A stretch of DNA of 40,872 bases from Deltaproteobacteria bacterium (GTDB lineage: Bacteria; Desulfobacterota; GWC2-55-46; DRQE01), in the NCBI GenBank assembly GCA_024278765.1, contig JAJRSM010000019.1, forward strand, positions 1-40,872, written 5' to 3'. The translations under genes and the position numbers were made by a program. Under the pieces are notes generated by a model. The model had not been told where the DNA came from. It saw only the letters and a list, made by a program, of their open reading frames with translations, and searched no databases. Every line of letters begins with the position of its first letter. The stretch's first letter is position 1. Shown here piece by piece: positions 8,782-40,872 of this stretch.

Positions 8782-8812
8782 TTTGGTGAGATAGAGATAT
8801 GAGGGGATACAT

Positions 8813-9694: not shown

Positions 9695-9747
9695 CACTAA
9701 TTCTGCGATAGACTGCTTCATATATCTTAGGCCACGGAGGGCGCGTA

Positions 9748-9975
9748 ATGTTAGTATTGACACGGAAGTCAGGTGAGGCAATTAGAATAGGTGATGATAT
9801 ACGCATCGTCATCGTCTCGATTAAAGACAACCATATAAAACTTGGCATAGAAGCACCACTGAGCAACCCTGTTCATCGTGAAGAAATATATCTGAGAATC
9901 CAGCAGGAAAATAAAAACGCATCCACTACTATGCCTGATGATATAGTAGATGCATTAAAGGGGTTTGATGTCTAA
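9748..9975 (+). CDS. csrA: Carbon storage regulator CsrA
   Basis: [51 protein letters not shown]. Confidence 0.97.
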
Positions 9976-10481: not shown

Positions 10482-10574
10482 AAGACTAAATAGTCATACG
10501 TATACCTTGGAATTATGTAAGGTTTATATACTATAATTTTTGTATTTTATATACGTCATTATTTCTGCCTTTAA

Positions 10575-10592
10575 ATGTCACTATTTTGACAT
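10575..10592. other. Inverted repeat ATGTCA-N6-TGACAT, possible regulator site
   Basis: Perfect 6+6 palindrome about 30 nt upstream of a sigma-70-like -35 element. Confidence 0.4.
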
Positions 10593-10620
10593 GTCGACTC
10601 TCTCCGCTTTACGAAAACAC

Positions 10621-10648
10621 TTGATAATTCAAGGATTTTAATTATAAT
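10621..10648 (+). promoter_or_regulatory. Sigma-70-like promoter for the glycan island
   Basis: TTGATA-N16-TATAAT in the 281-nt gap upstream of the dehydratase gene. Confidence 0.5.
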
Positions 10649-10762
10649 GAGATATATCTGATATGGTATGGATTTTGCATATTACTAAAGGTATATCTAA
10701 CTAACAGTACCGTTGTTTACGGCTCTGCATTGCTGGGGGCGTAAAGCAGGGAAGGTGATTTT

Positions 10763-11758
10763 ATGGCGTTAGAAGGCAGTACTATACTTATAACCGGCGG
10801 GACCGGTTCTCTGGGTCAGAAGTTGACTGAGATTATTCTGGCCAATTATAATCCAAAGCGTCTTATAATTCTCAGCCGTGATGAGCTTAAGCAGTACGAG
10901 ATGTGTCAGAGATTTAATGACCATCAGGCTCTCAGGTTTTTTCTCGGTGATGTAAGAGACCGTGACAGGCTTTACAGGGCTTTTGATGGTGTTGATTATA
11001 TCATTCATGCGGCTGCCCTTAAGCAGGTACCCGCTGCCGAGTACAATCCTTTCGAGGCCATCAAGACAAATATTTATGGTGCTAAGAATGTCATTGACGC
11101 TGCCGTTGATTGGGGTGTTAAGAAGGTCGTAGCACTTAGCACAGATAAGGCCGCTAATCCGATAAACCTATACGGAGCGACAAAGCTCTGCTCTGATAAA
11201 CTTTTTATCTCCGGCAATACCTATGCCGGCAGTAAACCTACGCGTTTTTCTGTGGTGAGGTACGGCAATGTTGTGGGGAGTCGCGGCAGTGTTATTCCGT
11301 ATTTTCTTCAGAGTCGAAAGAGCGGGGTGGTTACTGTAACCGATAAGCGTATGACGAGGTTCTGGATAACGCTTGATCAGGGGGCGCGAATGGTACTGGA
11401 TTCTTTTGAGAGAATGAAGGGGGGGGAGATCTTTGTCCCTAAGATTCCAAGTACCGGAATTATGGATGTTGTCGAGGCCATCGCACCTGATTGCGAGGTA
11501 AAGCTAATAGGGATAAGGCCAGGAGAGAAACTCCATGAAGTCCTTATCAGTGAGGATGACGGTAGGTTAACGCTTGAGTATGATGATTACTTTGTGATCC
11601 AGCCGCAGTTCCCTTGGTGGGGGCAGGAGCGCAAAGAAGGCGGCGTCCCTGTGAGGGACGGCTTTACCTATACTAGTGATAATAATAAGGTCAAGCTGGA
11701 TATCAAGGGTATTCAGGATCTTGTAGAGACGTGGCATGGTGGTGGCGATCACGACTGA
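10763..11758 (+). CDS. pseB: UDP-GlcNAc 4,6-dehydratase, PseB-like
   Basis: ILITGGTGSLGQKLTEIIL; HAAALKQVPAAEYNPFEAIKTNIYGAKNVIDAA; ALSTDKAANPINLYGATKLCSDKLF; RPGEKLHEVL. Confidence 0.9.
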   Translation: MALEGSTILITGGTGSLGQKLTEIILANYNPKRLIILSRDELKQYEMCQRFNDHQALRFFLGDVRDRDRLYRAFDGVDYIIHAAALKQVPAAEYNPFEAIKTNIYGAKNVIDAAVDWGVKKVVALSTDKAANPINLYGATKLCSDKLFISGNTYAGSKPTRFSVVRYGNVVGSRGSVIPYFLQSRKSGVVTVTDKRMTRFWITLDQGARMVLDSFERMKGGEIFVPKIPSTGIMDVVEAIAPDCEVKLIGIRPGEKLHEVLISEDDGRLTLEYDDYFVIQPQFPWWGQERKEGGVPVRDGFTYTSDNNKVKLDIKGIQDLVETWHGGGDHD

Positions 11759-11819
11759 TAATTTTAAGATTTAATACGGATCTGGTTGTTAAATATAGAA
11801 GCGCAGAGGTCTTGAAAAG

Positions 11820-12920
11820 ATGGCAGAGAAGGTTATTATAGGCAGCCGTGAGGTTGGCCCTGGTTTTCCTACTTATATTATAGCTGAGGTCGGTTCTAAC
11901 CACGACGCAAGTCTGGAGCGTGCGATGGAGCTTGCAAAGGCCGCTAGAGATGCCGGGGCCGACGGCGTTAAGTTTCAGTCTTTTACAGCCGAGGGGCTTA
12001 TAAATCCGCTAAGGCCGGATGGTGCCGGCGGTTGGGAAGACCACCACGCATACGAGGTGATAGATAAGCTTACCTTACCGGCGAAGTGGCACTATGAACT
12101 TAAGCGTTATTGTGATGAGCTTGGTATAGATTTTCTCTCGGCCCCGTTTGATCTGGGTCGTGCAGATCTCTTACATATGGTTGGGGTATCGGCCTACAAA
12201 ATCGCCTCCGGCGATATTACCTATGTCCAGCTCCTTCAGAGAGTCGCATCCTTTGATAAGCCTGTTATCTTATCGACCGGGGCGTCTTATCTGGAAGAGG
12301 TCGATGAGGCGGTAAAGGTCATTATGGCAGCAGGCAATAGCCAGATCGCGCTGATGCATTGTGTCTCGCTTTATCCGAGCAAGTTCGAGGATGCCAACCT
12401 TAAATGCATAACGACTATGAGAAAAGCATGGGGTGTGCCGGTTGGGTTCTCTGATCATAGTGCTGGTTCTTTACTGGCGATAGGGGCGGTCTCTTTGGGT
12501 GCTTCTATAATAGAGAAGCACCTGACCTTTAGTCGTGAACTCGGCGGCCCAGATCATTCATATGCAATGGAGATCGGTGAGTTTAAAGAGATGGTAGATG
12601 ACATTCGTTCTATTGAGATTGCTCTTGGTACAGGTCTTAAAAAACCAACTGAGCAGGAGATCGGCGAGCGAGTAGGGGCACGGAGAAGTATATATCTAAG
12701 GAAAGACGTAGCGGCAGGGATGGTCCTTACCAGTGATCTCTTTAAGGTTGTCAGGCACGCCCATGGTATGGAGCCGTGCCAGTTATCTGGTGTTATAGGT
12801 AAAGAGGCCGCACGTGATCTAAAGCAGAATATGCCGTTGCTGGTAGATGATATTAGTGAATTCGACAAAACTTCTGAGACTGGGGCGGCAGCGAAGAAGC
12901 CGGACTTTGCCGGTCGTTGA
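11820..12920 (+). CDS. NeuB-family nonulosonate (sialic/pseudaminic/legionaminic-type) synthase with SAF domain
   Basis: AEVGSNHDASLERAMELAKAARDAGADGVKFQ; KIASGDITYVQLL; GFSDHSAG; EKHLTFSRELGGPDH; C-terminal SAF-like RRSIYLRKDVAAGMVLTSDLFKVVR. Confidence 0.92.
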   Translation: MAEKVIIGSREVGPGFPTYIIAEVGSNHDASLERAMELAKAARDAGADGVKFQSFTAEGLINPLRPDGAGGWEDHHAYEVIDKLTLPAKWHYELKRYCDELGIDFLSAPFDLGRADLLHMVGVSAYKIASGDITYVQLLQRVASFDKPVILSTGASYLEEVDEAVKVIMAAGNSQIALMHCVSLYPSKFEDANLKCITTMRKAWGVPVGFSDHSAGSLLAIGAVSLGASIIEKHLTFSRELGGPDHSYAMEIGEFKEMVDDIRSIEIALGTGLKKPTEQEIGERVGARRSIYLRKDVAAGMVLTSDLFKVVRHAHGMEPCQLSGVIGKEAARDLKQNMPLLVDDISEFDKTSETGAAAKKPDFAGR

Positions 12921-12988
12921 TTTTTTTAAAATTTCCGTCTTTTACCTTTACTCTAAACCAGGATTGTCTGTAATAAGGCGAGGGGCCT

Positions 12989-13801
12989 TTGGGTACGAAC
13001 CTAGTCGATGAAAAAGGACCGGCTGGTAGCAGATCGGTCATCGCTATCATTCAGGCACGGATGGGCTCGACCAGATTGCCAGGGAAGGTCTTGGCAGATC
13101 TCTCTGGCAAGACCATCTTATGGCATGTCGTTAGTAGGGTCAGGCACGTGCGTGCTGTGGACCGGATCGTTGTCGCAACGACTCTGGGCGCATCCGACGA
13201 CAAGATCGTAAGGTGGTGTGATGACGAAGGGGTAGCCTGCTTCAGGGGTAGCTCCGAGGATGTTCTGGATCGTTATTACCGGGCAGCCCTTGAGTACGAC
13301 GCGGCTACTATTGTCAGGATTACATCTGATTGCCCTTTGCTGGACCCTTCGCTTGTTGATATGGCTATCGCTAAATTTCAGGCCGGCGGCTATGATCACG
13401 TAAGTGTCGGAGGTAATTACCCGGACGGTCTTGATACAGAGGTCTTTTCATTCGCAGCCCTTGCTAGCGCGTGGAAAGAGGCGGTACTTGGCTCAGAGCG
13501 CGAGCATGTAACGCCGTTTATTTGGAAGCAGCCCGAGCGTTTCAGGCTCTTTGGTTTTAGTGCGCAGGAAGACTATCGAGCGATGCGCTGGACCGTAGAT
13601 GACGAGCGTGACCTCAGATTTGTCCGTGCCGTCAGTGACGGGTTAGGCCGACGTGATAAGCCTTTTGGCATGCAGGAAATACTTGATTACCTCAAGCTTC
13701 ATCCGCAGCTCTTAGAGATAAACGGCGGCACTATGCGTAACGAAGGATACGCAAAGTCTCTTCGCCAAGACGCAGTGACTGCGGTTACTGAAAAGGACTG
13801 A
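12989..13801 (+). CDS. SpsF-like cytidylyltransferase (TTG start)
   Basis: VIAIIQARMGSTRLPGKVLADLSGKTIL; FRGSSEDVLDRYYRAA; VRITSDCPLLDP. Confidence 0.9.
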   Translation: MGTNLVDEKGPAGSRSVIAIIQARMGSTRLPGKVLADLSGKTILWHVVSRVRHVRAVDRIVVATTLGASDDKIVRWCDDEGVACFRGSSEDVLDRYYRAALEYDAATIVRITSDCPLLDPSLVDMAIAKFQAGGYDHVSVGGNYPDGLDTEVFSFAALASAWKEAVLGSEREHVTPFIWKQPERFRLFGFSAQEDYRAMRWTVDDERDLRFVRAVSDGLGRRDKPFGMQEILDYLKLHPQLLEINGGTMRNEGYAKSLRQDAVTAVTEKD

Positions 13802-13840: not shown

Positions 13841-15154
13841 ATGACTACAGGTAATGACTCTGCATTTCCAATATCAGATGAGCTCTGGCAAAGGGGGCGA
13901 GCCCTTATTCCGACCGGCACCCAGACGCTCAGTAAGGCCCCTAACCAGTTCGTTGGCGGGGTAACTCCTAAGTACCTGAAGCGTGGTGAGGGCTCTCACG
14001 TATGGGACGTAGATGGTAACGAGTACATTGATTACCCTATGGCCCTTGGCCCTATCCTACTCGGCTATAACTATCCTCCGGTCATAGAGGCCGTAACAAA
14101 ACAGATCAAAGAAGGCACTACTTTTACCCTTATGCATCCGCTTGAGGTCGAGGTCGCTGAGCTCATGAGAGAGCTTGTTCCTAGCTGCGATATGGTGCGT
14201 TTTGGTAAAAACGGTGCCGACGCGACGAGTGCTGCCGTCAGGGCAGCGCGCGCTTATACTGGTAGAGAAAACGTTGCTTACTGCGGCTACCATGGTTGTC
14301 AGGACTGGTATGCCGTGGTGACCCCTCGTAATATTGGTATTCCTAAGTACCTTGCGTCCTTAATGCATGCCTTTGAATATAATAAAATAGAAAGTCTTGA
14401 AAAGGTCTTTGTCGAAAATCCCGGAAAGATAGCTGCCGTTATTATGGAGGTCCCAGGTATTGAGCCTGCGATTAATCCAGAGACAGGCATGAATTTTTTG
14501 CAAGAGGTCGCCGAGCTCGCCAGTAAAAACGGAGCAGTCTTTATTCTAGATGAGATTGTAACTGGCTTTCGTTTTTCTATCGGAGGTGCGCAGCAGAAGT
14601 ATGATGTAATGCCGGATCTGTCCTGCTTTGGTAAGGGCATGGCAAATGGTTTTCCGATCTCTGCCGTAGTAGGTAAAAAAGAATTTATGAAAGAGTTTGA
14701 CGAGGTTTTTTTCTCTATGACTTATTCCGGTGATACAATCGGGCTTAGTGCGGCAAAGGCTACTCTAACGGAACTCATTGAAAAGCCTGTAATAGATTAT
14801 ATCTGGAAGACGGGCGCGCGACTTCACGCAGGGGTAAATAAGCTAGCCGAAGAACTCGAAGTGCCGTTTCGCTTTGGTGGGCAGCCGGTAAGAGGCCATT
14901 ACGTAATTGAAGCTGGTGATGAGGACCAAGTGTTAACGGTAAAGAGTCTTTTTTTGCAGGAGACCGTCAAGCGCGGTATATTATTTGGCGGTCCTGTCTT
15001 TATTTCTTACTCGCACAGCGAGGGTGATATCGATAAAACAATCAATGTCGTGGGCGAGGCCTTCAAGGTTATAAAGAAGGCTTTGGCAAGCGGTGATCCA
15101 GATGCCTTTATAGAGGGCGAAAAACCAAGTGTAGTCTTCAGGCAAAGGAAGTAG
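13841..15154 (+). CDS. Class III PLP aminotransferase (glutamate-1-semialdehyde 2,1-aminomutase-like)
   Basis: GTQTLSKAPNQFVGGVTPKYLKRGEGSHVWDVDGNEYIDYPMALGPILLGYNYPPV; PLP-Lys region CFGKGMANGFPISAVVG. Confidence 0.9.
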   Translation: MTTGNDSAFPISDELWQRGRALIPTGTQTLSKAPNQFVGGVTPKYLKRGEGSHVWDVDGNEYIDYPMALGPILLGYNYPPVIEAVTKQIKEGTTFTLMHPLEVEVAELMRELVPSCDMVRFGKNGADATSAAVRAARAYTGRENVAYCGYHGCQDWYAVVTPRNIGIPKYLASLMHAFEYNKIESLEKVFVENPGKIAAVIMEVPGIEPAINPETGMNFLQEVAELASKNGAVFILDEIVTGFRFSIGGAQQKYDVMPDLSCFGKGMANGFPISAVVGKKEFMKEFDEVFFSMTYSGDTIGLSAAKATLTELIEKPVIDYIWKTGARLHAGVNKLAEELEVPFRFGGQPVRGHYVIEAGDEDQVLTVKSLFLQETVKRGILFGGPVFISYSHSEGDIDKTINVVGEAFKVIKKALASGDPDAFIEGEKPSVVFRQRK

Positions 15155-15155
15155 C

Positions 15156-16148
15156 GTGGATATTAAGGATAAAACATTTCTTCTAATTGGTTGCGGCTCT
15201 ATAGGGAGAAGGCATATAAAAAACCTCGCCTCTATCGGAGCAAGAAGGTTTATGCTCTGCGACCTTAGCGAAGACCGTCAGGCTCAAGCAAGGGCCTGTC
15301 TGCCTGGCGACGCTGAGGTAGAGTCTTTTACAGACTACTGCGCAGCCCTAGATAAGGGGCCAGATGCGGCTCTAATATGTACACCGTCGAGTATGCACCG
15401 GGAGATGTCGGTAGCAGCGGCGCGTGCCGGGGTAAATCTTTTTATCGAGAAGCCGCTATCACATACTATAGACGGCGTGGCAGAGCTTATAGAGATAGTA
15501 ACTGAAAAGCAACTGATAGCTACGATGGCGATGTGTTACCGCTTTCATCCTGTTTTTAAAAGGCTTAAGCAGATGATGGATGATAATGTTATAGGCAGGC
15601 TTTATCACGCCAATTGTTACGGCGGTTATTATCTGCCGTATTGGCATCCTAATGAGGATTATAGAACCGAATATGCTGCGCAGAAAAAACTTGGCGGCGG
15701 GGTGATACTAACAAGCATTCACGGCTTTGACAACCTGCGTTGGCTCTTTGGTGAGGTAGAGCAGGTAACTGCGATTGTTGATAAGGTCGGCGATCTGGAG
15801 ATGGACGTCGAGGATATGGCTCTTGGGACATTTCAGATGCAGAGCGGCTTGTATATAAGTTGGCAGACGGATTTCCTGAGAAGGTCTGATGAGCATATGT
15901 ATGTTATCGTTGGCGAATTAGGCACGCTCAGGTGTAATGTGCTGGAAGGTTTGATTGAGGTTTATTCTGCAGAGGATCGCAGTTGGAGCACAGAGCGGAT
16001 CGCCTATAATGTGAATGCCATGTATATAGCCGAGATGGAGTCTTTTGTCAGTGCCATTACTACGGGCTCGCCTGTGGCCGTAGGGCTTGATGAGGGGCGC
16101 AAAACTCTAAAGTTAGCACTTGAGATAAAGGCGCAAGGCGGAGGTTAG
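15156..16148 (+). CDS. Gfo/Idh/MocA-family oxidoreductase (GTG start)
   Basis: FLLIGCGSIGRRHIKNL; ALICTPSSMHREMSVAAARAGVNLFIEKPLS. Confidence 0.9.
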   Translation: MDIKDKTFLLIGCGSIGRRHIKNLASIGARRFMLCDLSEDRQAQARACLPGDAEVESFTDYCAALDKGPDAALICTPSSMHREMSVAAARAGVNLFIEKPLSHTIDGVAELIEIVTEKQLIATMAMCYRFHPVFKRLKQMMDDNVIGRLYHANCYGGYYLPYWHPNEDYRTEYAAQKKLGGGVILTSIHGFDNLRWLFGEVEQVTAIVDKVGDLEMDVEDMALGTFQMQSGLYISWQTDFLRRSDEHMYVIVGELGTLRCNVLEGLIEVYSAEDRSWSTERIAYNVNAMYIAEMESFVSAITTGSPVAVGLDEGRKTLKLALEIKAQGGG

Positions 16149-16151
16149 GCC

Positions 16152-17174
16152 ATGGGTATGGGAATTGCAAAGAGGGTTACTATCTGGACCGAGGGTGGCA
16201 GCTCTATAGGTATGGGACATATCGCCAGATGTATTAATCTCTCCCGCGCCCTTAAGGATGTCGGGATAGATTCAATGTATTACGTCAATAACGATCTGAC
16301 GACGATGGAGATCCTTAAGAAAAACGACCTGCCCTACCGGGTAGCACCGCTGGAAGATGTTCAGGGGCTCTTAGATGAAGATGAGCTTATTGTAATAGAT
16401 ACTAAAAAAGACCTGCCTGGGCAGGTTGAGCTCTTAAGATGCAGGGGGCGAAAGATTGTCTTGATCGATAACAATACCGCTGCCGTAGAGCAAGCAGATC
16501 TTACTATTATGCCATCGATCTACTTTGATGCTGAAAAAGACTATGTTAGCCCGAGCTCCAGAGGAGGAGCTGAGTATCTTATTATAGGTGATAGTTTTCG
16601 CGCCAAGAGAGAAGAGAGTTTGCGTCTAGGATTTTCTCTGCCTTTGCAGGTGCTGGTCTCTATGGGAGGGGCCGATCCAAATCATATTACAGAGAAGGTC
16701 GTTTCTGCTCTGGTTGGGATGGATCAGGTAGAGGTGGATATCGTAATCGGTAATGCATCAAAGCCGACAGAGAGTCTCTATGAACTGGAGCGTGCAGGGC
16801 ATACGAACGTCAGGTTTCACAAACACCTGACCGATCTTGCTCCGCTGATGACCAAGGCGCATGTGGCTTTTACGGCCCTGGGGACAACTATAAATGAGTT
16901 GGTCTTTATGGGAGTGCCACCGATAGTTATCTCTAATTACTTTGATGATTCGCAAGACCTCGGTAGGTTGAGAGGTCTTGAGGTCGGCATTGCAATGGAT
17001 CATCACAGCGATTGTTCTGCCGTGGATATAAGGGGCGCGGTCAAGGGCTTTGTCGATGACCACGCAGGGTGGGAGATGATGAACATGAATGCCGCAGCCT
17101 TGACCGACGGGATAGGTGCTGTTAGGATCGCAGCACTTATAGCAGACCTTGGTTGGCCTGGCAGGAAGGGGTAA
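16152..17174 (+). CDS. PseG/SpsG-like nucleotide-sugar hydrolase or glycosyltransferase-fold protein
   Basis: SSIGMGHIARCINLSRALKDVGI; VSMGGADPNHITEKVV; ALGTTINELVFMGVPPIVI. Confidence 0.85.
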   Translation: MGMGIAKRVTIWTEGGSSIGMGHIARCINLSRALKDVGIDSMYYVNNDLTTMEILKKNDLPYRVAPLEDVQGLLDEDELIVIDTKKDLPGQVELLRCRGRKIVLIDNNTAAVEQADLTIMPSIYFDAEKDYVSPSSRGGAEYLIIGDSFRAKREESLRLGFSLPLQVLVSMGGADPNHITEKVVSALVGMDQVEVDIVIGNASKPTESLYELERAGHTNVRFHKHLTDLAPLMTKAHVAFTALGTTINELVFMGVPPIVISNYFDDSQDLGRLRGLEVGIAMDHHSDCSAVDIRGAVKGFVDDHAGWEMMNMNAAALTDGIGAVRIAALIADLGWPGRKG

Positions 17175-22030: not shown

Positions 22031-22034
22031 TATT

Positions 22035-25337: not shown

Positions 25338-25338
25338 G

Positions 25339-29993: not shown

Positions 29994-31158
29994 GAATCTT
30001 TTGATACAGGTACACTGGACTGATCTTGAGGGTTATAGGGAACTTATTAAAGGCCCTGTCCTGGGACTTCTTGCAGAGGTTTCTGAAAAGTTTGATAATG
30101 TAGTACTGGTCTGTGCTGATACGCCTGAGAATAAAGCCGTAGAAGAGTTTGCCGCGCGTCATTCTTTAAAGTGTTTTAAGGGCGCGGATACAGATATTCT
30201 GAGGCGTTTTAAGGACTGCATGGACGAATATTCTATGGCCAGTGCCGCGCGGATCCTGCTTTACTGGTTTATGGTTGATGTGCCGTATCTGATTAGATGT
30301 CTGGATGCTCTGGAGGGGGCAAAGGCAGATTATCTCTCAATGCCCATAGACTTTGATGCCAAGTTCGGTGGCGACGTCTTTGCTTATTCTTTTTTATCTA
30401 AGGCAGAGGCCCTTCTTTCTGGCACAAAGAGCAAAGATCATGCTCGTTATCTTTTCTGTCCGTGGGCATTGACAGAGCTTAATCCTGAGGCCTTTGTTTT
30501 TGCGGACTCTCCAGAGGTCCCAAGCTACGGCAAGGAAAGGCTTGATGAAATTAGAAAGATTGTTGATGCCGCATACCCAGAGCGAGCACCGGGGACAGAG
30601 GTTAGTGATTATGAGTTTGCGGCGTCTTTTTTAGGTGAAGCCGCAGAAGATATCGCTGATATCTCATGCGGCTTTGGTGTCGGAACTGAGTACCTTGCAA
30701 TTCGTTTTAAGAGTGTAGTTGGTATAGATTATGATAAAGCGGTAATAGATAAGAATATAAAAAGGACGGGTGAGCTTGAAAACCTCGTTTTTCGCGCAGG
30801 CGACGCTACTGATCAGGGGCTTTTTAAGGCGGCGAGCCTCTCAGCGGTTATCTCTATGCACTCGATGGAGCATTTTCCGGATGACGAGGCCTTTTTAGAG
30901 AATTGCTCACGGTGGTTGCGCCAGGATGGCGTTATGGTTCTGGAGGTCCCGCTGCGCTATAAATATCCATTTGCAACGGACTGGGCTCCGATTGGCTCGG
31001 CCCATATACGTGAGTATACAAAGGCCGGGCTGCGGTCGTTATGCGAAAGGTATTTTAAGATAGAGAAGAGTTTTGGGGTTACTCGCGGGCTTTACCTGGC
31101 CCCGGAGATGGCCCGTAATGCAGTGCTTTTGGTGATGAAAAACAAGAGGTGCGACTAA
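29980..31158 (+). CDS. Degenerate SpsF-like nucleotidyltransferase domain fused to a SAM methyltransferase
   Basis: N-terminal half aligns with the SpsF at 12989 (KCFKGADTDILRRFKDCMDEY vs ACFRGSSEDVLDRYYRAALEY) but lacks the QARMGSTRLPGK motif; C-terminal half DISCGFGVGTEYLAIRFKSVVGIDYD. Confidence 0.75.
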   Translation: MFLVKNLLIQVHWTDLEGYRELIKGPVLGLLAEVSEKFDNVVLVCADTPENKAVEEFAARHSLKCFKGADTDILRRFKDCMDEYSMASAARILLYWFMVDVPYLIRCLDALEGAKADYLSMPIDFDAKFGGDVFAYSFLSKAEALLSGTKSKDHARYLFCPWALTELNPEAFVFADSPEVPSYGKERLDEIRKIVDAAYPERAPGTEVSDYEFAASFLGEAAEDIADISCGFGVGTEYLAIRFKSVVGIDYDKAVIDKNIKRTGELENLVFRAGDATDQGLFKAASLSAVISMHSMEHFPDDEAFLENCSRWLRQDGVMVLEVPLRYKYPFATDWAPIGSAHIREYTKAGLRSLCERYFKIEKSFGVTRGLYLAPEMARNAVLLVMKNKRCD

Positions 31159-32378
31159 TCAGTAAGAGGTTACTTATAATCGGCGGTGGTATTGAGCAGG
31201 TCCGTGCCTACGAGCTTGCCCGTGAGATGGGGTTGTTTCTGGTCGGCTCGGATAGATCGCCGGATGCACCGGCCTTGAAACTTGCCGATGATAAGATAAT
31301 CGCCAGTACAAGAGATCCGAGAGCGAGCCTTAAGGCAGTTTTAGAGTTTAATGAGGACCAAAAGATAGACGGCGTCATGACGCTAGCCAATGACGTACCG
31401 CTGACCGTTGCTACTATCGCTACCAGTCTTGGTCTGCCGGGTATATCAATTGCTTCGGCTCGGCTTGCAGCAGATAAACTTTTAATGAAGCAGGCTTTTA
31501 GCCGTGCTGGCGTGCCTGTGCCGGAGTTTAGAGAGGTTTTCTCAGCTGAAGACCTAAAGGTTGCGATAAAGGACTGGGGCTATCCCATCGTGATTAAGCC
31601 AAATGACGGTAGGGGCTCGCGTGGTGTCCTAAAATTAACCGCAGGGGTTGATCTTTCGTGGGCCTACGCACATGCAAAGGATAATTCCGATAGCGGTCGT
31701 GTTATCGTAGAGGATTTTATAGAAGGTACGCAGTATAGTACTGAATCTATGGTATATAAAGGTTGCTGCTATACGGCCTGTATCTCAGAGCGTAACTACG
31801 AACTTATCGATAAATACGCACCGAATATAATAGAGAACGGCGGGACCTTACCGGCTGATATTAATGAAGCCACCTCGCATGCGATAGAAGACGTTGTCGC
31901 CAGTGCTGCTTGCGCAATGGGGATTAATAACGGTACGGTAAAGGGTGATATAATAATGACCCCGGAAGGCCCGCTTGTCATTGAGCTAGCTGCAAGATTA
32001 AGCGGCGGCTATCTTTGTACTGATCAGATCCCGCTTGCCCGTGGTGTGGACCTTGTTCGCCAGACCATAAAGCTTGCTCTGGGGCAAGAACTGGATACGG
32101 CTGAGCTCGTGGCTGAAGATATCTGCAAGCTCGGGATAAGGTACTTCTTCCCTGAGCCCGGGTGTATTGAAAAAATAGAGGGCTTTGAAGAACTATCGGG
32201 TCTGGAGTGGGTCTCAAAGAAGATGCTATTTCTGGGCGTCGGTGATATAGTTGAGTCGCCCTCTAACCATACAAAAAGAGTTGGCTTTGTTCACGCAAAA
32301 GGCAATACATTTCAAGAGGCAACGCAGCGTGCAATAGAGGCCGCGGCGATGGTACGGATCGAGACCGTGCCTTTATAA
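31149..32378 (+). CDS. ATP-grasp ligase, copy 3 (GTG start)
   Basis: IIGGGIEQVRAYELAREMGLFLVGSDRSPDAPALKLADDK; YPIVIKPNDGRGSRGVLKL; VIVEDFIEGTQYSTESMV; ELAARLSGGYLCTDQIPLARGVD. Confidence 0.88.
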   Translation: MRLISKRLLIIGGGIEQVRAYELAREMGLFLVGSDRSPDAPALKLADDKIIASTRDPRASLKAVLEFNEDQKIDGVMTLANDVPLTVATIATSLGLPGISIASARLAADKLLMKQAFSRAGVPVPEFREVFSAEDLKVAIKDWGYPIVIKPNDGRGSRGVLKLTAGVDLSWAYAHAKDNSDSGRVIVEDFIEGTQYSTESMVYKGCCYTACISERNYELIDKYAPNIIENGGTLPADINEATSHAIEDVVASAACAMGINNGTVKGDIIMTPEGPLVIELAARLSGGYLCTDQIPLARGVDLVRQTIKLALGQELDTAELVAEDICKLGIRYFFPEPGCIEKIEGFEELSGLEWVSKKMLFLGVGDIVESPSNHTKRVGFVHAKGNTFQEATQRAIEAAAMVRIETVPL

Positions 32379-32580: not shown

Positions 32581-33429
32581 ATGACTTTACTAGATTTTAA
32601 TACAGGTAAGATGTTGAAAGAAAAAGCGGCTGAGCTGAGGCGACATATTATAGTTATGAACTGTTATGCTGGCTCGGGGCATCCGGGAGGTGCGCTCTCT
32701 GCCGTTGAAATTATAACGAGTCTTTTTCATGACGAAATGAACTTTACCGTTGCAAATAAAAACTCTCCCAGCAGAGATAGGTTTGTATTATCAAAGGGCC
32801 ATGCATGTATGGCTCTATACGGTGCTCTGGCTCAGTGCGGTTTTATCTCTACTGATGAGTTTAAAGGTCTTCGTCAGATCGGCGGTAAGTTACAGGGCCA
32901 TCCTGATATGCAAAAGACCACAGGTGTAGAGTTTAACTCTGGCTCGCTGGGCCATGGCCTGTCATTTGCCCTAGGGGTTGCGCTCGGTGCTAAGTTTAAA
33001 AGGGAAAAGTTTCGCGTCTATACCTTGCTTGGCGATGGTGAACTGAATGAAGGGCAAGTCTGGGAGGCTTTCATGTTCGGTGCGCATTATCAGTTGGATA
33101 ATCTGGTAGCCATTATTGATCATAATAAACTCCAGAGCGATGCTGAGTGCGATAAGGTAACGGCACTTTCTCCGCTTCTTGATAAGCTTACGGCATTTGG
33201 TTGGAATGTAATTGAAATAGACGGTCATGATTTTTCTGCTATATCTGCTGCTCTTTATACGGCACGTAGGGCTAAAAAACGCCCTACGGTTATAGTTGCT
33301 AATACAATTAAGGGAAAGGGGATATCATTTATGGAAAATGTGCCGAAGTGGCACGGCAGTCTTGCGCCTGAGGGAGAAGAGCGAGAGATTGCTCTGAAAG
33401 AATGCGGCTACGAAGGCGGTGATCTATGA
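32581..33429 (+). CDS. Split transketolase, N-terminal subunit, copy 2
   Basis: SGHPGGALSAVEIITSLF; RDRFVLSKGHACMALYGALA; LLGDGELNEGQVWEAFM; ANTIKGKGISFMEN..WHG. Confidence 0.94.
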   Translation: MTLLDFNTGKMLKEKAAELRRHIIVMNCYAGSGHPGGALSAVEIITSLFHDEMNFTVANKNSPSRDRFVLSKGHACMALYGALAQCGFISTDEFKGLRQIGGKLQGHPDMQKTTGVEFNSGSLGHGLSFALGVALGAKFKREKFRVYTLLGDGELNEGQVWEAFMFGAHYQLDNLVAIIDHNKLQSDAECDKVTALSPLLDKLTAFGWNVIEIDGHDFSAISAALYTARRAKKRPTVIVANTIKGKGISFMENVPKWHGSLAPEGEEREIALKECGYEGGDL

Positions 33430-34361
33430 TTTCGATGAGAGACGCTTTTGGCCAGGCTTTGGTCGAGCTTGGAAAGATAAGAAATGACTTTGTCGTGCTT
33501 GATGCGGACGTAGCCGGTGGCACTGGGACGTTGCCTTTTCGTGAGGCCTTCCCCAATAGATTTATTCAGTGCGGTATAGCCGAGCAGAATATGGTAAGTA
33601 TGGCAGCCGGCTTTTCAACAAGTGGTCTGATCCCTATCGTGACCTGTTACTCTGTCTTTGCATCTATGCGCGCCATCGAACAGGCACGTAACTCGGTAGC
33701 CTATCCAAAGTTTAATGTAAAGATAATCGCAAGCCACGTAGGCCTTGACGTCGGCCCGGACGGCCCCTCGCATCAGGCGATGGAGGACCTTGCTATATTC
33801 AGATCCATACCGAACTTCAGGGTCGTGTCCCCGGCTGATCCAACTGAGCTTAAAAAAGCTTTACCATCAATACTGAGCAGTGACGGCCCTGTCTATATGC
33901 GTACAGGGAGAAGCCCGCTACCGACGATCTTTGATGAGGATATAGGCTTTAGGATAGGTAAGGCAATGATTGTTCGCGACGGTGTGGATTGTACAATTAT
34001 AGCCGTTGGAGTTATGGTCGCACGCGCCCTTGTTGCGGCAGGAGAGCTTGAGGCAGACGGTATAAAGTGTCGAGTCGTTAATATGTCTACGATCAAGCCA
34101 ATTGATATGGCGGTTATTAAAGACTCAGCAGAGAAGACCGGTGCTATAGTTACGGCAGAGGACCATAATATTATAGGTGGGCTTGGCGGTGCTGTGGCCG
34201 AAGTGCTCGGTGAGATCTGCCCTGTGCCAATGCAGCGCGTCGGTATAAAAGACCGTTTCGCAGAGTCCGGCGATCCAGAGGCTCTGGCAACAAAATACGG
34301 CTTGGATAGCCGCACCATAAAGGCCGCTGTCCTGAGGGTGATAAAGAGAAAGAAAAGTTAA
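33426..34361 (+). CDS. Split transketolase, C-terminal subunit, copy 2
   Basis: FVVLDADVAGGTGTLPFREAFPNRFIQCGIAEQNMVSMAAGFSTSGLIPIVTCYSVFASMRAIEQAR; TAEDHNIIGGLGG; ATGA overlap with the upstream subunit. Confidence 0.94.
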   Translation: MISMRDAFGQALVELGKIRNDFVVLDADVAGGTGTLPFREAFPNRFIQCGIAEQNMVSMAAGFSTSGLIPIVTCYSVFASMRAIEQARNSVAYPKFNVKIIASHVGLDVGPDGPSHQAMEDLAIFRSIPNFRVVSPADPTELKKALPSILSSDGPVYMRTGRSPLPTIFDEDIGFRIGKAMIVRDGVDCTIIAVGVMVARALVAAGELEADGIKCRVVNMSTIKPIDMAVIKDSAEKTGAIVTAEDHNIIGGLGGAVAEVLGEICPVPMQRVGIKDRFAESGDPEALATKYGLDSRTIKAAVLRVIKRKKS

Positions 34362-34394: not shown

Positions 34395-35147
34395 ATGGAT
34401 AATCTAGCTGGAAGGATAGCTCTTGTCACCGGCGGCTCTCGTGGCATCGGTAAGGGGGTAGCTCAGGCCCTTGGAAGGGCCGGGGCTACGGTTGTAGTTA
34501 CGTACAATAGCAATCAGGCTCTAGCCGGGCAATTAGTTGAGACCCTTACCTGCAGTGGTATTACGGCGCATTGCCTGAAGCTCTGCGCCCAGGATAGGGG
34601 GTCTGTCAGAGAGGTCATCGCTGAGATAAATAAAAGATTTGGCCAGATAGATATACTGGTAAATAACGCCGCTATATCGCAGGAAAAACCCTTTGATACT
34701 GTAACCGATAGTGACTGGGATAGTATGTTGGCGGTAAATCTACGAGGCCCTTTTGCATGCACCCAGGAGGTGTTGCCCGGGATGCGCAAGCAGGGTTACG
34801 GGCGTATTATAAATATAGCCTCGATTGGCGGGCAGTGGGGTGGCTTTAATCAGGTCCATTATGCCGCAAGCAAGGCGGCCCTGATAAGCTTTACGCATTC
34901 TATGGCCAAGATATATAGCAAGGACGGCATTACATCCAATGCTGTTTCGCCGGGGCTGGTCGCCAGTGATATGTCGGCGGCAGAGCTTCAGACTGAGGCC
35001 GGTGCTAAAAAGCTAAGCGGTATTCCTGTTGGAAGAATAGCCTCGGTTGATGAGATAGCTGCCGTGGTTGTCTTTCTTGCCGGTAATTCTGCTGCTTATA
35101 TTACAGGGCAGACGATTAATGTGAATGGTGGAATGTTATTTAGTTGA
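34395..35147 (+). CDS. SDR-family oxidoreductase (FabG-like)
   Basis: GRIALVTGGSRGIGKGVAQALG; NNAAISQEKPF; YAASKAAL; YITGQTINVNGGM. Confidence 0.93.
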   Translation: MDNLAGRIALVTGGSRGIGKGVAQALGRAGATVVVTYNSNQALAGQLVETLTCSGITAHCLKLCAQDRGSVREVIAEINKRFGQIDILVNNAAISQEKPFDTVTDSDWDSMLAVNLRGPFACTQEVLPGMRKQGYGRIINIASIGGQWGGFNQVHYAASKAALISFTHSMAKIYSKDGITSNAVSPGLVASDMSAAELQTEAGAKKLSGIPVGRIASVDEIAAVVVFLAGNSAAYITGQTINVNGGMLFS

Positions 35148-35164
35148 GAGAGGATTCCTTGAAT

Positions 35165-36397
35165 ATGAAAAAAGAGACCAGAACCATTCTGATAGTAGGC
35201 GCGGGTGTTGAGACGATTCCAGGTATCAGGCGTGCTAAAGAAATGGGGCTCTATGTTGTGGTAAGCGATATGAATCCGAATTCCCCGGGCTGTGCAATCG
35301 CTGATAAGAGCATTGTTGCAAGTACATATGATGTTCTGGCTACGGTCGAGGCAGCAAAGGACTTTTTTAAGAATGAAAGGCCTATTGACGGGGTAATAAG
35401 TGTAGCAACCGATGTCCCGGTGGCCGTGGCTAGTGTAGCCGCGGAACTAGGTCTGGTGGGCATTCCTGTAGAGGCTGCGCGTATCGCATCAAATAAGGTC
35501 TTGATGATGCAGGTCTTATCCGATGCTGGGATTCCTGTGCCGTGGTACTCGGTCGTCAACTCAGCTGAGGACCTGAAAGATATTGAGAGGCAGCGTTGCT
35601 GTGACTGTGTCGTAAAGCCCGTTGATAGTCGAGGTTCCAGAGGCGTTGTTATGCTCAGCAGCCTTGAAGAATGCGAGTTCTCTTATAACTATGCTTTGCA
35701 GTTCTCACCGAGCAAGCAGGTGATGGTCGAAGAATACGTCGAAGGCCCTCAGATAAGTACCGAGTCTTTGCTGCTTAAGGACGTGGCATATACCCCGGGG
35801 TTTTCCGACCGTAATTATAAGGATTTTAAGAGGTTCTCCCCGCACATTATTGAAGACGGTGGTCAGCAGCCTTCTTTTTTATTTGATCCGGATCGTCAAG
35901 CAGTCGCAGACCTTGCCGTCAGGGCGGGCCGTGCCATTGGTGTTGAGACAGGGATTATAAAAGGGGATATGGTCTTGTCGGCGCAGGGGCCAAAGGTCAT
36001 TGAGATAGCACCGAGACTCTCTGGCGGATGGTTCTGTACAGACCAGATACCGCTTGCCACAGGGGTTGATTTGATAGGTGCTGCTTTACGGGTAGCCCTT
36101 GGCGAGACTCCGAGCGCGCAGGAACTTACAAATAATAAAACAACGGCTGTCGCAATCCGCTATTTTTTCCCTGCTCCCGGCAAGGTTGTCGCAATCAATA
36201 ATCTATCTGAATTTGACAATACCGAGTGGGTTCATCGTATAGGCTTTTTTGTTAAGGTCGGAGATATTGTCGGCGAGGTATCTGATCATACGGGCCGCTC
36301 CGGCTACGTTATAACGACCGGGCGAACTCGTCAGGAGGCCGTCTCTAGAGCCGACGAGGTCGTAAAGGTCGTAAAGGTCGTAACGACAGCACTATAA
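35165..36397 (+). CDS. ATP-grasp ligase, copy 4
   Basis: IVGAGVETIPGIRRAKEMGLYVVVSDMNPNSPGCAIADKS; CVVKPVDSRGSRGVVML; VMVEEYVEGPQISTESLL; EIAPRLSGGWFCTDQIPLATGVD. Confidence 0.88.
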   Translation: MKKETRTILIVGAGVETIPGIRRAKEMGLYVVVSDMNPNSPGCAIADKSIVASTYDVLATVEAAKDFFKNERPIDGVISVATDVPVAVASVAAELGLVGIPVEAARIASNKVLMMQVLSDAGIPVPWYSVVNSAEDLKDIERQRCCDCVVKPVDSRGSRGVVMLSSLEECEFSYNYALQFSPSKQVMVEEYVEGPQISTESLLLKDVAYTPGFSDRNYKDFKRFSPHIIEDGGQQPSFLFDPDRQAVADLAVRAGRAIGVETGIIKGDMVLSAQGPKVIEIAPRLSGGWFCTDQIPLATGVDLIGAALRVALGETPSAQELTNNKTTAVAIRYFFPAPGKVVAINNLSEFDNTEWVHRIGFFVKVGDIVGEVSDHTGRSGYVITTGRTRQEAVSRADEVVKVVKVVTTAL

Positions 36398-36425: not shown

Positions 36426-38450
36426 ATGAGTAAGCTTTATTTATATAGTCTCTTTCATTTAAATCTTTCTTTTTCTGCTATTCCAGAGGCCGATTATCCC
36501 TATGTTTTAAAGAACTGCTATAGCCCTCTGCTCGATATGGCAGGGCAGGGGTTGCCGGTAGCCATCGAGGCCTCAGGCACAACCTTGTTGGAGATAAACC
36601 GGCTGAGTCCTTCTTTTATAGCGAGGCTCGCCCGGCTTTGGCGCGACGGTAAATGTGAGTTTATCGGCTCGGGGCTGAGCCAGGTCATAATGCCGCTTGT
36701 CCCGACCCAGGTGAATCGTTGGAATCTGAAGTACGGAGTTCAGGTCTATGAAGACCTGCTTGGTCAGCGCCCTATGGTTGCTCTGGTAAATGAACAGACT
36801 TATTCCAGAGGTGTGGTAGACCTCTTTGTTGAGGCCGGTTACTCTGCGATAATTATGGATTGGAATAATTGCTACAGGTATAACCAGTATCCCAAAGATC
36901 TTTTATACTCACCGCAGCGGGCAAGAGGGATAGAGGCTGATATAGATGTGCTTTGGAATAACTCCATTGCATTTCAGAAGCTCCAGCGTTTTGTCCATGG
37001 CAGCCTGCCTGCAACTGAGTATAAAGAATATCTTGCCAACCACCACAACAGTGATAAAGATACCTGCTTTGTTGTCTATGGAAATGACGCAGAGGTCTTT
37101 GACTATAGGCCGGGCTCTGGCCCTCTCGAGCGCAACGACGGTGAGAGCTCTGAACTGGAACGCTTAAAAGATATCTTGAGATCAATCGCTGGTAATGATG
37201 ATTTTGTATTTACGACCCCTACAGAGCTACTTGGTTACTTCAGAGGAAGCCCCGGTGCTTATGAGTTGCTAGGTCTTGAGTCGGTTGAGAGTCCGCTAGT
37301 CTGCAAGAAGCAGGAGAAGTACAACCCCGTGCGCTGGGCTGTGACCGGGCGCGACTCCGTTCATATGAACGGTGCGTGTTACGGTATATATAACAACCTT
37401 GAGTTGCTTAATAACAGCCTTGACCGGGTAGATAGGGATAGCTACCGTAAGACTCTTTGCGAGTTGTGGGGCAGTGACTTTCGTACCAACACGGTTGACG
37501 AGAAGTTTCTGGCCTATCAAAATAAGATGGGCTGGATCAAGGTTCAGACAGATAGGCTATTGAGTAATATCTATGGAACTGGCAAGACTAAGTGTTGTGA
37601 AGGTAGCTGCGGCTGCGCAGAGAGCCGCAAGCGTGGTCTGGATTTGAGACCGGAAGATGCGGTGATAGTTGATCAGACAGATAGGCTTCGGATTATCACG
37701 CCGCTTATAGAGGTCGAGTTCCTAAAGGAGAAGGGCTTTGCAATAAGCTCTCTTATCTTTCCTGAGGTCTCAGATCAGCCGCTGCTGGGAACACTTGAGC
37801 ACGGTTATTATGATGATATTGGATACGGGGTTGATTACTTTAGCGGGCATTTTATACGGCAGGCTCGCGACGGTGCTAAGACGACCGATCTGGAATGCGC
37901 AGAGCCAGTGATTGAGGATGGCCTGCGTGAACTTAGTATCTCTGTAAAGATACCGCTGGATATAGGTACGATCTTTAAGACCTATGTTATCTCAAAGGTT
38001 AAAGGCGAGCTGAGTATAAAGTATAGGCTTAAGGTATCGGGGCTAGAGGCGTCTTCGTTAAGGCTCGGTATCTTTACCTTTATGCCGGAGAGTTTTGATC
38101 AAGAGTCACTGTATTACGGCTCGGTAAATGGCGGTAGCGGCCCTGAGAACTTCTTGCTTCAAGGTAGCCACGTTACTCACGATGAACCGGTAAACCAGAG
38201 GGTCTCGGCCTCTGGGTGTCTCGGAGCTACCGAGGGTTGGGTAGCTGTCGGCGACAAAGATAAAGAGCTTCGTATTATGACCAATAAGAGCGAGCTTTAC
38301 TCTGTGCCCATGGTAAGCTACCGTCAGGTAGATGATAAGTTTTTTCTCCGCCTCTATCATTCTATAGGAGAGATAGATGAGACGGCTTGGTGGGTCTGGA
38401 GAGGGGATAATTATATCAGTTTTAAGATAAGTGCCTTTAATAAGGACTAA
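36426..38450 (+). CDS. Glycoside hydrolase family 57-like protein with C-terminal beta-rich domain
   Basis: GH57-like motif series: LFHLNLSFSAI; CEFIGSGLSQVIMPLVP; ALVNEQTYSRGVVDLFVEAGYSAIIMD; YGNDAEVFDYRPG. Confidence 0.72.
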   Translation: MSKLYLYSLFHLNLSFSAIPEADYPYVLKNCYSPLLDMAGQGLPVAIEASGTTLLEINRLSPSFIARLARLWRDGKCEFIGSGLSQVIMPLVPTQVNRWNLKYGVQVYEDLLGQRPMVALVNEQTYSRGVVDLFVEAGYSAIIMDWNNCYRYNQYPKDLLYSPQRARGIEADIDVLWNNSIAFQKLQRFVHGSLPATEYKEYLANHHNSDKDTCFVVYGNDAEVFDYRPGSGPLERNDGESSELERLKDILRSIAGNDDFVFTTPTELLGYFRGSPGAYELLGLESVESPLVCKKQEKYNPVRWAVTGRDSVHMNGACYGIYNNLELLNNSLDRVDRDSYRKTLCELWGSDFRTNTVDEKFLAYQNKMGWIKVQTDRLLSNIYGTGKTKCCEGSCGCAESRKRGLDLRPEDAVIVDQTDRLRIITPLIEVEFLKEKGFAISSLIFPEVSDQPLLGTLEHGYYDDIGYGVDYFSGHFIRQARDGAKTTDLECAEPVIEDGLRELSISVKIPLDIGTIFKTYVISKVKGELSIKYRLKVSGLEASSLRLGIFTFMPESFDQESLYYGSVNGGSGPENFLLQGSHVTHDEPVNQRVSASGCLGATEGWVAVGDKDKELRIMTNKSELYSVPMVSYRQVDDKFFLRLYHSIGEIDETAWWVWRGDNYISFKISAFNKD

Positions 38451-38465
38451 GGGGAAGCACCCAGG

Positions 38466-40376
38466 ATGACTGAGCAAAGTATCTTTGAAAAAAACATAGA
38501 AGCCCTTGAAGCCAACAACCCGGAACTCGTCGAAACTCTGCGCACTACAGATGTCTGTGGAGTGGAGCTGGAGCAGACAAAGAACGGGGAATATACGTTG
38601 CAGCATAAGGGGCTTTATTTTCATAGCCGGTATGATCCGACAAAAGAGGCAAAGGTCCAGCTTGAAGAGATCGTGGAGTCAAAGGCCGACTGGATGGTTT
38701 TATTCGGCCTTGGCTGCGGTTATCTTTTTAAGGAGCTCGCCATTGTAAGGCGAGAAAGAGATGCAGGCACTCAGGTCGTAGTCTTTGAGCCTTCAATCGA
38801 GATACTTGTGGGTGTATTAAAGCAGATAGATCTGAGCGAGTACTTCTCTGACCCAAGTGTTTATATCTATCACGATCTGCCCAGCCTTGAGGTCAAGATG
38901 TCCAGGGATATCGAGGGTATGGATGATATTTTAGGGTATCAGTCAAGGCCGTATAAGCAGATCTTCGCCCCTGAACTTTTGGATTTTATGGAGAAGGTCA
39001 GTAATGCCCGTATGGTAAGCAAGGTCTATATTAAAACAGATATAACCTCCAGACACGTATGGCTGGAGAATTACTTTGGTAATGTAGATAATTTTTTTGA
39101 GTACCCGGGGGTTGGTGTTTTAATAGATAAATTCAAGGGCATCCCGATGGTTGTCGTCGGGGCAGGGCCTTCTCTTGAAAAAAACGTCCATATACTGAAA
39201 GAGATGAAGGGTAAGGTTGTTATTATGGCTGCTATCTCGGCCTATATGCCGCTCTTGCACAATGGGATTATACCGGACCTTATCGTCTGTGGTGAAAAGA
39301 CAGACCTGCCCGGTCATTTTACAGGTGCGCCGGAGGATAAAAAGGTACGACTCCTGCTCTCCGATGTTGTCCATCCTAATATGTTGCGGCGTGAGGCTAA
39401 GGGTAAGTTTATCTTTGTCAGTACCTTTATGCGTCTTAGCCTGAGGCATGCCGGGCTCTGGGGGCAGAATTATTGCCCGGATGTCGGGGGCAGTGTGACT
39501 ACCACGGCATTGTCGATCGGGGTTGATTTTGGTTGCGACCCGGTCGTCATGATCGGTCAGGACCTTGCGTTCGGTGAGCACAGCACGCACGCAGAGGGGG
39601 CCGCGTACTCGGATCAAAGTCTGGAATTTGAGGATAACGGTACAGTAAAGGTCCAAGAAAGGTACGCAAACTCTGGTGAACGTGTTCAGAGTGAGTATAA
39701 GGTTCTGTGGCTCGACGGTATAAACGGGGAGCGCATCAGATCGAAGTTTGACTGGGTGACCTTCCATAGCTGGTTCATAGAGTATATGAGAAGGCATCAT
39801 GAGGCTGAAAGCACTACGCATGTAATTAATGCGACCGAGGGCGGCGCATATATAGAAGGCATGGAACATATGACCCTGAAAGAGGTTCAAGATAAGTATG
39901 TTACCAGGGACTATCCTATTGAAGAGATACTTTCAAAGGCCGATAGTAGCGTGCAAAAGGTAGATTACGACGGCCTTTTGAGTAACTACGGCGCAATCCT
40001 GACTTCTCTTAAAAAGATAAAGACCATGGCCTCATCTATAATTATGGATGTAAATAAAGTAAAGAAGATTTTTGATAGCAAGGGGCTTAGCCATGAGATG
40101 ATAGGGCATGTCGGAAGGATTCAGGAAAAAGAGAAAAAGCTCTTTAAAGAGAGTCACAACGTCATCTTTATGTGGGAGACCGTTGTTGAGTATACCTATA
40201 AGTTAAAGGAATACCTCAGAGAAGATATTGAGAAAGGTTCTGTGGACCAGATAGCCAGAGATCTAAAGAGCATAAAGACAACATATATAAATGTACGTGA
40301 GGCAGCAGAGAGGTTTATTCCTATTCTGGAGCATTCAATTGAGCGGATTGAGGTGCATAATAAGGGCGAAGCCTAG
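38466..40376 (+). CDS. Motility-associated factor (Maf) glycosyltransferase, DUF115 / MptE-like
   Basis: VLIDKFKGIPMVVVGAGPSLEKNVHILKEMKGKVVIMAAISAYMPLLHNGIIPDLIVCGEK; GSVTTTALSIGVDFGCDPVVMIGQDLAFG. Confidence 0.88.
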   Translation: MTEQSIFEKNIEALEANNPELVETLRTTDVCGVELEQTKNGEYTLQHKGLYFHSRYDPTKEAKVQLEEIVESKADWMVLFGLGCGYLFKELAIVRRERDAGTQVVVFEPSIEILVGVLKQIDLSEYFSDPSVYIYHDLPSLEVKMSRDIEGMDDILGYQSRPYKQIFAPELLDFMEKVSNARMVSKVYIKTDITSRHVWLENYFGNVDNFFEYPGVGVLIDKFKGIPMVVVGAGPSLEKNVHILKEMKGKVVIMAAISAYMPLLHNGIIPDLIVCGEKTDLPGHFTGAPEDKKVRLLLSDVVHPNMLRREAKGKFIFVSTFMRLSLRHAGLWGQNYCPDVGGSVTTTALSIGVDFGCDPVVMIGQDLAFGEHSTHAEGAAYSDQSLEFEDNGTVKVQERYANSGERVQSEYKVLWLDGINGERIRSKFDWVTFHSWFIEYMRRHHEAESTTHVINATEGGAYIEGMEHMTLKEVQDKYVTRDYPIEEILSKADSSVQKVDYDGLLSNYGAILTSLKKIKTMASSIIMDVNKVKKIFDSKGLSHEMIGHVGRIQEKEKKLFKESHNVIFMWETVVEYTYKLKEYLREDIEKGSVDQIARDLKSIKTTYINVREAAERFIPILEHSIERIEVHNKGEA

Positions 40377-40593: not shown

Positions 40594-40732
40594 ATGAAAC
40601 AGTAAAGTGTATTTGAAAAGAATTTAGATGCTTTAAAGGAAAACAATCCAAGGTTAGCCAGAGAGTTACGTTCGATAACTGTTGATGCCGGTTGCGACCC
40701 TTCATGGATGGTTTGAGGAGTATATGGCCGCG
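40594..40732 (+). pseudogene. Decayed Maf (DUF115) paralogue with internal deletion
   Basis: ATGAAACAGTAAAGTGTATTTGAAAAG = MKQ*SVFEKNLDALKENNPRLARELRS, compare MTEQSIFEKNIEALEANNPELVETLRT of the intact gene; then in another frame VATLHGWFEEYM, compare WVTFHSWFIEYM from the middle of the intact protein. Confidence 0.82.
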
Positions 40733-40872
40733 TGTAACCATCCCGTATAATAGTACCATCAATAAATAGAGTTCTCCGTTATACTGATTAATCAGAAAGG
40801 AGGACATATTATGAAGAAGTCGCGATATACAGAGACGCAAATCGTTGGTATCTTGAAGGAGGTTGAGGCAGG
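40733..40872 (+). mobile_element. Left end of an IS3-family insertion sequence (truncated by window; exact boundary uncertain)
   Basis: Encodes the start of an IS3 OrfA; proposed terminus TGTAACC.. follows directly after Maf pseudogene similarity stops. Confidence 0.6.
40811..40872 (+). CDS. IS3-family transposase OrfA, N-terminus (truncated at window end)
   Basis: MKKSRYTETQIVGILKEVEAG, characteristic Transposase_8/HTH start, preceded by RBS aaaggagg. Confidence 0.88.
   Translation, partial: MKKSRYTETQIVGILKEVEA

Follow-up and report, generated by a model that had tools for sequence, protein, structure and literature searches.

The locus described here raises a simple question: what does an enzyme with a glycosidase fold do in a gene cluster for flagellin glycosylation? 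Nearly everything known about glycoside hydrolase family 57 (GH57) comes from enzymes of starch and glycogen and from a few alpha-galactosidases. The DNA we have analyzed, the window, is a stretch of 40,872 nt (contig JAJRSM010000019.1) from a Deltaproteobacteria genome. It contains the flagellar genes flgI, flgJ, flgK, flgL and fliW, followed by genes for nonulosonic acid (NulO) synthesis, modifying enzymes, a gene for a GH57-type protein at 36426-38450, for which we use the working label GH57x, and maf. The initial annotation had placed a GH57-like gene between ATP-grasp and Maf genes, a short gap before maf, and this description is accurate. The open reading frame is intact, it has exactly these limits and matches Pfam GH57 (E 4.2e-12). 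The upstream ATP-grasp gene ends 28 nt before it (36397), and maf starts 15 nt after it (38466). GH57x very probably works in the NulO/flagellin-glycan pathway, and we predict with moderate confidence that it is a dedicated retaining GH57-type enzyme of NulO glycan assembly on flagellin. The features of the gene and its surroundings are shown in Table 1.

Table 1. Features of the GH57x gene and its surroundings in the window. Residue numbers are those of GH57x.
Feature	Position	Strand	Evidence
PseB-like dehydratase, NeuB-type synthase, CMP-sugar synthetase (nonulosonic acid core)	10763..13801	+	Pfam
Class III aminotransferase, GFO/IDH/MocA oxidoreductase, PseG-like nucleotide-sugar hydrolase	13841..17174	+	Pfam; TIGR03590 for PseG-like
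Split transketolase-type TPP enzyme, N and C subunits	32581..34361	+	Pfam 3.2e-53, 2.9e-44
SDR oxidoreductase (FabG-like)	34395..35147	+	Pfam 1.9e-59
ATP-grasp carboxylate-amine ligase with LAL_C2 domain, directly upstream of GH57x	35144..36397	+	Pfam LAL_C2 4.2e-18
GH57x, 674 aa	36426..38450	+	ORF, ATG start; Pfam GH57 4.2e-12; model pLDDT 84, pTM 0.85
Catalytic (beta/alpha)7 barrel and helical bundle, residues 1-385	36426..37580	+	Domain model, fold search
H11-L12-N13, replacing GH57 HQP (CSR-1)	36456..36464	+	H and N in 47/47
Glu123, predicted nucleophile after beta-4	36792..36794	+	Aligns with TLGT Glu123; 47/47
K185-x-x-R188 of F-Q-K-[FL]-Q-R, part of basic set	36978..36989	+	K/R185 47/47; R188 46/47, absent in L118
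Asp221 (predicted acid/base, after beta-7), Glu223 and Arg228 in DAEVFDYR	37086..37109	+	D221 aligns with TLGT Asp214; D221, E223 47/47; R228 46/47
KKQxKYNxxRWAxxGR, residues 294-309	37305..37352	+	K294, K295, K298 46/47; R303, R309 47/47
Hypervariable linker with CCEGSCGC, residues 384-412	37575..37661	+	Unconserved; pLDDT 29-43
C-terminal beta-sandwich, residues 413-674	37662..38447	+	Secondary structure; full-length fold matches TLGT, GH38, Gal10
Maf-type flagellin glycosyltransferase (MptE-like and Maf_flag10_N)	38466..40376	+	Pfam 3.8e-35, 6.5e-7

The NulO segment of the window codes for PseB-like, NeuB and CMP-synthetase proteins, a class III aminotransferase, a GFO/IDH oxidoreductase and a PseG-like protein. 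The middle of the window contains genes for methyltransferases, four ATP-grasp proteins with LAL_C2, two split transketolases, a B12-radical SAM protein, alcohol dehydrogenases and an SDR. Besides Maf, no conventional glycosyltransferase family of Pfam is matched by the cluster genes in the window. The gene at 16152-17174 has no Pfam match at 1e-5, and its match to TIGR03590 (PseG, 7.8e-32) is below the curated cut-off; judged by its sequence, the product is a putative divergent PseG-like nucleotide-sugar hydrolase. The idea that GH57x is a missing UDP-sugar hydrolase is weakened by the presence of this gene. The four LAL_C2 ATP-grasp ligases in a single glycan cluster (20819-23228, 31149-32378 and 35144-36397) suggest that the sugar carries several amide-linked acyl or amino-acid groups. 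The two split transketolase-type TPP enzymes of this flagellin-glycan cluster (24462-26301 and 32581-34361) possibly serve branched or extended sugar side chains.

That GH57x has a GH57 fold is practically certain. The PF03065 (GH57) match covers residues 25-232, and its score of 46.4 bits is well above the cut-off (21.2). No model in NCBIfam or PHROGs fits GH57x, and a PDB search with this sequence alone gave no relevant match, so the protein is far from the characterised members of the family. A family profile built from 17 GH57x members and searched against solved structures finds the Thermococcus litoralis 4-alpha-glucanotransferase (TLGT) with an E-value of 7.4e-12. The alignment pairs Glu123 of GH57x with Glu123 of TLGT and Asp221 with Asp214, residues which we take to be the catalytic pair of TLGT. 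They are found in the segments ALVNEQTYS and NDAEVFDYRPG, proposed beforehand as the nucleophile and acid regions; the alignment and the conservation described below agree with both proposals.

AlphaFold models of the full-length protein (pLDDT 84, pTM 0.85) and of residues 1-385 (pLDDT 87, pTM 0.88) contain seven barrel strands (4-12, 45-49, 77-81, 118-121, 141-145, 173-178 and 213-218) followed by a helical bundle (helices 312-328, 334-349 and 358-383). Glu123 comes directly after beta-4 (118-121) and Asp221 after beta-7 (213-218), a statement about strand positions and not about side-chain geometry. This is the arrangement published for GH57, with the catalytic Glu at beta-4 and the Asp at beta-7 (PMC6037648). 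When residues 1-385 are used in a fold search, the first six PDB ranks are all GH57, the best being TLGT (1k1x, E 2.5e-16, TM 0.72), and GH38 comes next. With the full-length model TLGT is again first, GH38 alpha-mannosidases are second and Gal10 is among the matches. The C-terminal beta-sandwich is of the kind seen in TLGT, GH38 and mutarotase-like proteins. GH38 proteins, which are zinc enzymes with an Asp nucleophile, are similar to GH57x in full-length fold, but the catalytic part of GH57x matches GH57 first. TLGT (PDB 1k1w, 1k1x and 1k1y) shares the barrel, the helical bundle, the beta-sandwich and the aligned Glu/Asp pair, although the catalytic domains are only about 16% identical. The protein has no signal peptide-like start: Residue 4 is already the onset of the first barrel strand, and for this reason GH57x looks cytoplasmic.

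We have compared 47 GH57x homologues from several phyla. H11, N13, E123, D221, E223, R303 and R309 are invariant in all of them. The invariance of the first five places the motifs, as sequence features, far beyond chance, and we predict with good confidence that the enzyme is catalytically active. The departure of HLNLS from the usual HQP, pointed out in the initial annotation, is real and turns out to be a family signature: This position is H-x-N in 47/47 sequences, where x may be C, L, A, M, I or H. CSR-3 and CSR-4 of GH57 are clear, CSR-1 keeps its His as H-[LC]-N, and CSR-5 may correspond to SDFRT, placed by eye. FQKxQR, KKQxKYNxxRWAxxGRD and SDFRT are signatures of the subfamily; together with HxN and the NulO/flagellin gene setting, they distinguish GH57x from TLGT. 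The KKQxKYN loop (about 290-310) has a pLDDT below 50 in both models, even though it is the most characteristic part of the protein.

A set of basic residues is part of the signature. R188, R228, K294, K295 and K298 are conserved in 46 of the 47 homologues, and residue 185 is Lys or Arg in all of them. The single exception is L118 (genome G617, 8862-11357), which lacks these five residues and has ERFKA, NYNPA and WNPDEYN at the signature sites, while E123 and D221 are kept. The genes around it code for sugar-binding proteins, ABC permeases and a GH2 enzyme, as in a sugar-uptake locus. Since the basic set is lost in a homologue with this setting, we infer that it may belong to the role of GH57x in NulO clusters, a contrast provided by one sequence, L118. 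No second relative of this type in a sugar-uptake locus was found in the class of L118 (seven genomes) or in another phylum.

The region between the two domains is of a different nature. The initial annotation had noticed a cysteine cluster, KCCEGSCGCAE, as a possible metal or disulfide site. The motif is there, at residues 389-399 (37590-37622), and the cysteines span residues 390-397, exactly at 37593-37616 as given. We have looked for it in the other GH57x homologues and it is only found in this sequence, in a linker region which is unalignable. A metal or disulfide site is therefore rejected: The cluster is unconserved and part of a disordered linker with a pLDDT of 29-43.

The distribution of GH57x follows that of Maf. 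Among 59 related genomes, 33 contain both a strong GH57x match and a Maf above the cut-off, 26 contain neither, and there are no discordant cases; these genomes are not phylogenetically independent, and their kinship inflates the agreement. Flagellin is found in 41 of the 59, the 33 with GH57x and Maf and eight with neither. The initial annotation called a glycosidase-fold enzyme in a flagellin glycan operon unusual. This falls short of the finding, as GH57x is no odd addition: It is a constant member of the cluster (33/33 Maf genomes). Over whole phyla its distribution is patchy: Of the genomes sampled, 19 of 395 have it in the phylum of the window, 3 of 300 in the phylum to which L047 belongs and 2 of 297 in the one to which L044 belongs. 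No relatives were found in the viral contigs we scanned.

Gene order is also conserved. GH57x lies directly before maf, with flagellin after maf, in 23 of 25 loci of the same order (this set includes L072, which is of the same class only). There are two exceptions. In L064 GH57x is found inside the NulO genes, where a PseG-like gene and a gene for a methyltransferase flank it; L058 is a second copy, next to genes for SDR and ATP-grasp. In a scan of 41 loci, maf follows immediately in 25 and ATP-grasp is present in 35. Some distant loci have no Maf inside the stretch read. These loci and L064 indicate that a direct partnership with Maf is not obligatory. The upstream genes vary (transketolase-SDR-ATP-grasp, ADH-ATP-grasp-radical SAM, or SDR-ATP-grasp-KduI/IolB) and GH57x is constant. 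In other classes and phyla SDR and ATP-grasp genes precede it, and genes for TPP, NeuB and CMP-synthetase proteins are frequently present as well (L086, L114-L117, L119-L121). On plasmid pDCAR1 of Solidesulfovibrio carbinolicus, NeuB, pseF, methyltransferase, fabG, transketolase, ATP-grasp, a 'glycoside hydrolase', pseB and pseC follow each other almost without interruption, and an MptE-like gene lies 20 kb beyond this run.

Two variations in the surrounding genes are worth mentioning. In L053 a KduI/IolB isomerase gene (8060-8833; PF04962, 1.6e-66) is found between ATP-grasp and GH57x, and several relatives have an ORF of similar size in the same place; this neighbour is a hint that a side group of the glycan may involve chemistry of the deoxy-uronate or inositol type. 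In L113 (genome G237, from another family of the same phylum) the genes Fe-ADH, TK, B12-rSAM, Zn-ADH, MT and ATP-grasp come directly before GH57x. They are 43-62% identical to the same run in the window, which seems to be a cargo module moving as a unit.

A bacterial group described in a 2018 survey may correspond to GH57x. It comprises 15 'alpha-galactosidase-related enzymes' of GH57 with an intact catalytic pair and no assigned specificity, including A3D6T3 of S. baltica and A5MZ16 of C. kluyveri; the average length is 660 aa, and the pair is 99 (Glu126/Asp225) or 98 (Glu125/Asp223) residues apart (PMC6037648). GH57x homologues are likewise bacterial, of about 660 aa, and have the full pair, with a spacing of 97-99 in 42 of 47. 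Logo positions 35-36 are Thr and Lys/His in the published group; in our alignment to the logo, made by eye, GH57x has Thr (43/47) followed by Asn (28) or His (15). Position 23 is Phe in the published group, whereas GH57x, as we interpret the numbering, has Val, Ile or Leu at residue 224 (47/47) and Phe at 225 (46/47). GH57x probably belongs to this group, compared here through its published description and not its sequences: The two agree in length and spacing, and probably in how CSR-5 ends, but not in the Phe at position 23, so the identity is only likely. In C. kluyveri, NulO genes are found close to genes for Maf or flagellin (PMC13317340), and S. baltica OS155 is named as the second species with sfm genes (PMC3765264).

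The sfm genes offer a comparison. In S. oneidensis, sfmABCDE (NeuB, TPP, SDR, methyltransferase and ATP-grasp types) are needed for normal modification of flagellin, which carries a 274 Da NulO and a second, nitrogen-free unit of 236-264 Da (PMC3765264). The same types of genes (NeuB-type, TPP, SDR, methyltransferase and ATP-grasp) are neighbours of GH57x in the window and on pDCAR1, but no GH57 gene is described in the S. oneidensis operon.

We think, with somewhat better than even probability, that GH57x acts on an acidic substrate containing NulO; it is one exceptional sequence, L118, that ties the basic residues to such a substrate. Glu123 would form a covalent glycosyl-enzyme and Asp221 would be the acid/base. 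The target would be an alpha-linked sugar unit of a NulO-containing glycan or of an activated precursor, and the invariant Lys/Arg set may bind an acidic group, either the NulO carboxylate or a nucleotide phosphate. As cargo genes vary while GH57x stays, its substrate should be the common glycan core. For keto-acid sugars Glu would be an unusual nucleophile (sialidases have Tyr in this role), so GH57x probably cuts a bond other than the ketosidic one of NulO. The glycosyl unit would be passed to an acceptor, as in a transglycosidase, or to water; a transglycosidase is a tentative choice, somewhat favoured over a hydrolase, hydrolytic trimming being nearly as likely. This step would precede the transfer of the glycan to flagellin by Maf. 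Maf-dependent glycosylation is described as cytoplasmic and as preceding export (PMC4065374). If a second unit is present, as in S. oneidensis flagellin, its joining or remodelling could come from a transglycosidase.

The main alternative is a hydrolase that trims sugar off mis-assembled or intermediate NulO glycans in the cytoplasm, a form of quality control. Its probability is below one half, though close to that of a transglycosidase: The catalytic machinery is the same, and L118, in its locus with a GH2 enzyme, suggests hydrolysis in the wider family. However, an enzyme that only trims should be missing from some genomes, while GH57x accompanies Maf in all 33 of the related genomes that have Maf, and the nearest solved fold, TLGT, is a transferase, although such enzymes can hydrolyse too. 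It is improbable that GH57x acts during donor synthesis, on an alpha-linked UDP-sugar or a CMP-NulO conjugate and not on the finished glycan. The invariant basic set could bind phosphates, and in L064 the gene lies within the NulO synthesis genes, but the cluster already has a PseG-like hydrolase gene and we know of no GH57 enzyme that uses nucleotide sugars.

The remaining explanations are less probable still. GH57x might be catalytically dead or structural and serve Maf as a scaffold that binds the glycan; the GH57 family does include 'like' groups in which the catalytic pair is incomplete (PMC6037648), and HxN takes the place of HQP. These groups lose one or both catalytic residues, however, and the pair of GH57x is invariant in 47/47, which makes a scaffold quite improbable. 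An ordinary alpha-glucan enzyme (amylase, branching enzyme or glucanotransferase), in the cluster by accident, would agree with the GH57 domain and the TLGT-like architecture. Nevertheless, three further GH57 genes lie elsewhere in the genome (G000, 2.2 Mb), all of them scoring better than GH57x, which is 20% identical to the one that aligns. In addition, the synteny with NulO and Maf genes is strict and the signature motifs are invariant over phyla, so we give this explanation very little weight. Least probable of all is a barrel of the polysaccharide-deacetylase or another type: The NodB-type deacetylase 1z7a does appear in the fold search, but at rank 29 (E 3.9e-8), far behind the six GH57 structures, and the profile aligns the GH57 catalytic pair. 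Neither of the two results named in the initial annotation as counter-evidence, missing catalytic residues or a deacetylase or other barrel, was obtained.

A dedicated GH57-type enzyme of NulO glycan assembly would have some wider consequences. The link with flagellin NulO glycans suggests a role for GH57 outside starch metabolism, and it offers a testable function for a published bacterial group which has had none assigned since 2018. GH57x may also explain how clusters without a recognisable glycosyltransferase besides Maf produce flagellin glycans of several units. We suggest, as a speculative extension, that GH57x is a second glycosyl-transferring enzyme of flagellin glycosylation, which would build or remodel the cytoplasmic NulO glycan before Maf and give the 'alpha-galactosidase-related' group a role other than alpha-glucan metabolism. 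Within the collection of papers searched, glycoside hydrolase family 57 and pseudaminic acid were not linked by any paper, and among the seven with both 'GH57' and 'flagellin' none appears, by title or abstract, to connect the two.

The end of the contig shows some further features. In relatives flagellin is found downstream of maf; in this genome Flagellin_N matches flgL only. Just past maf, 40594-40700 resembles the beginning of another maf gene (SVFEKNLDALKENNPRL; for comparison, SIFEKNIEALEANNPEL) in which codon 4 is an in-frame stop. By eye, this reads like a putative broken tandem copy of maf; L065 and L072, two relatives, carry tandem maf genes. The last positions, 40811-40872, resemble by eye the start of an IS3-type transposase OrfA (MKKSRYTETQIVGILKEVEAG), and an IS3-type element at this end may explain the contig break.
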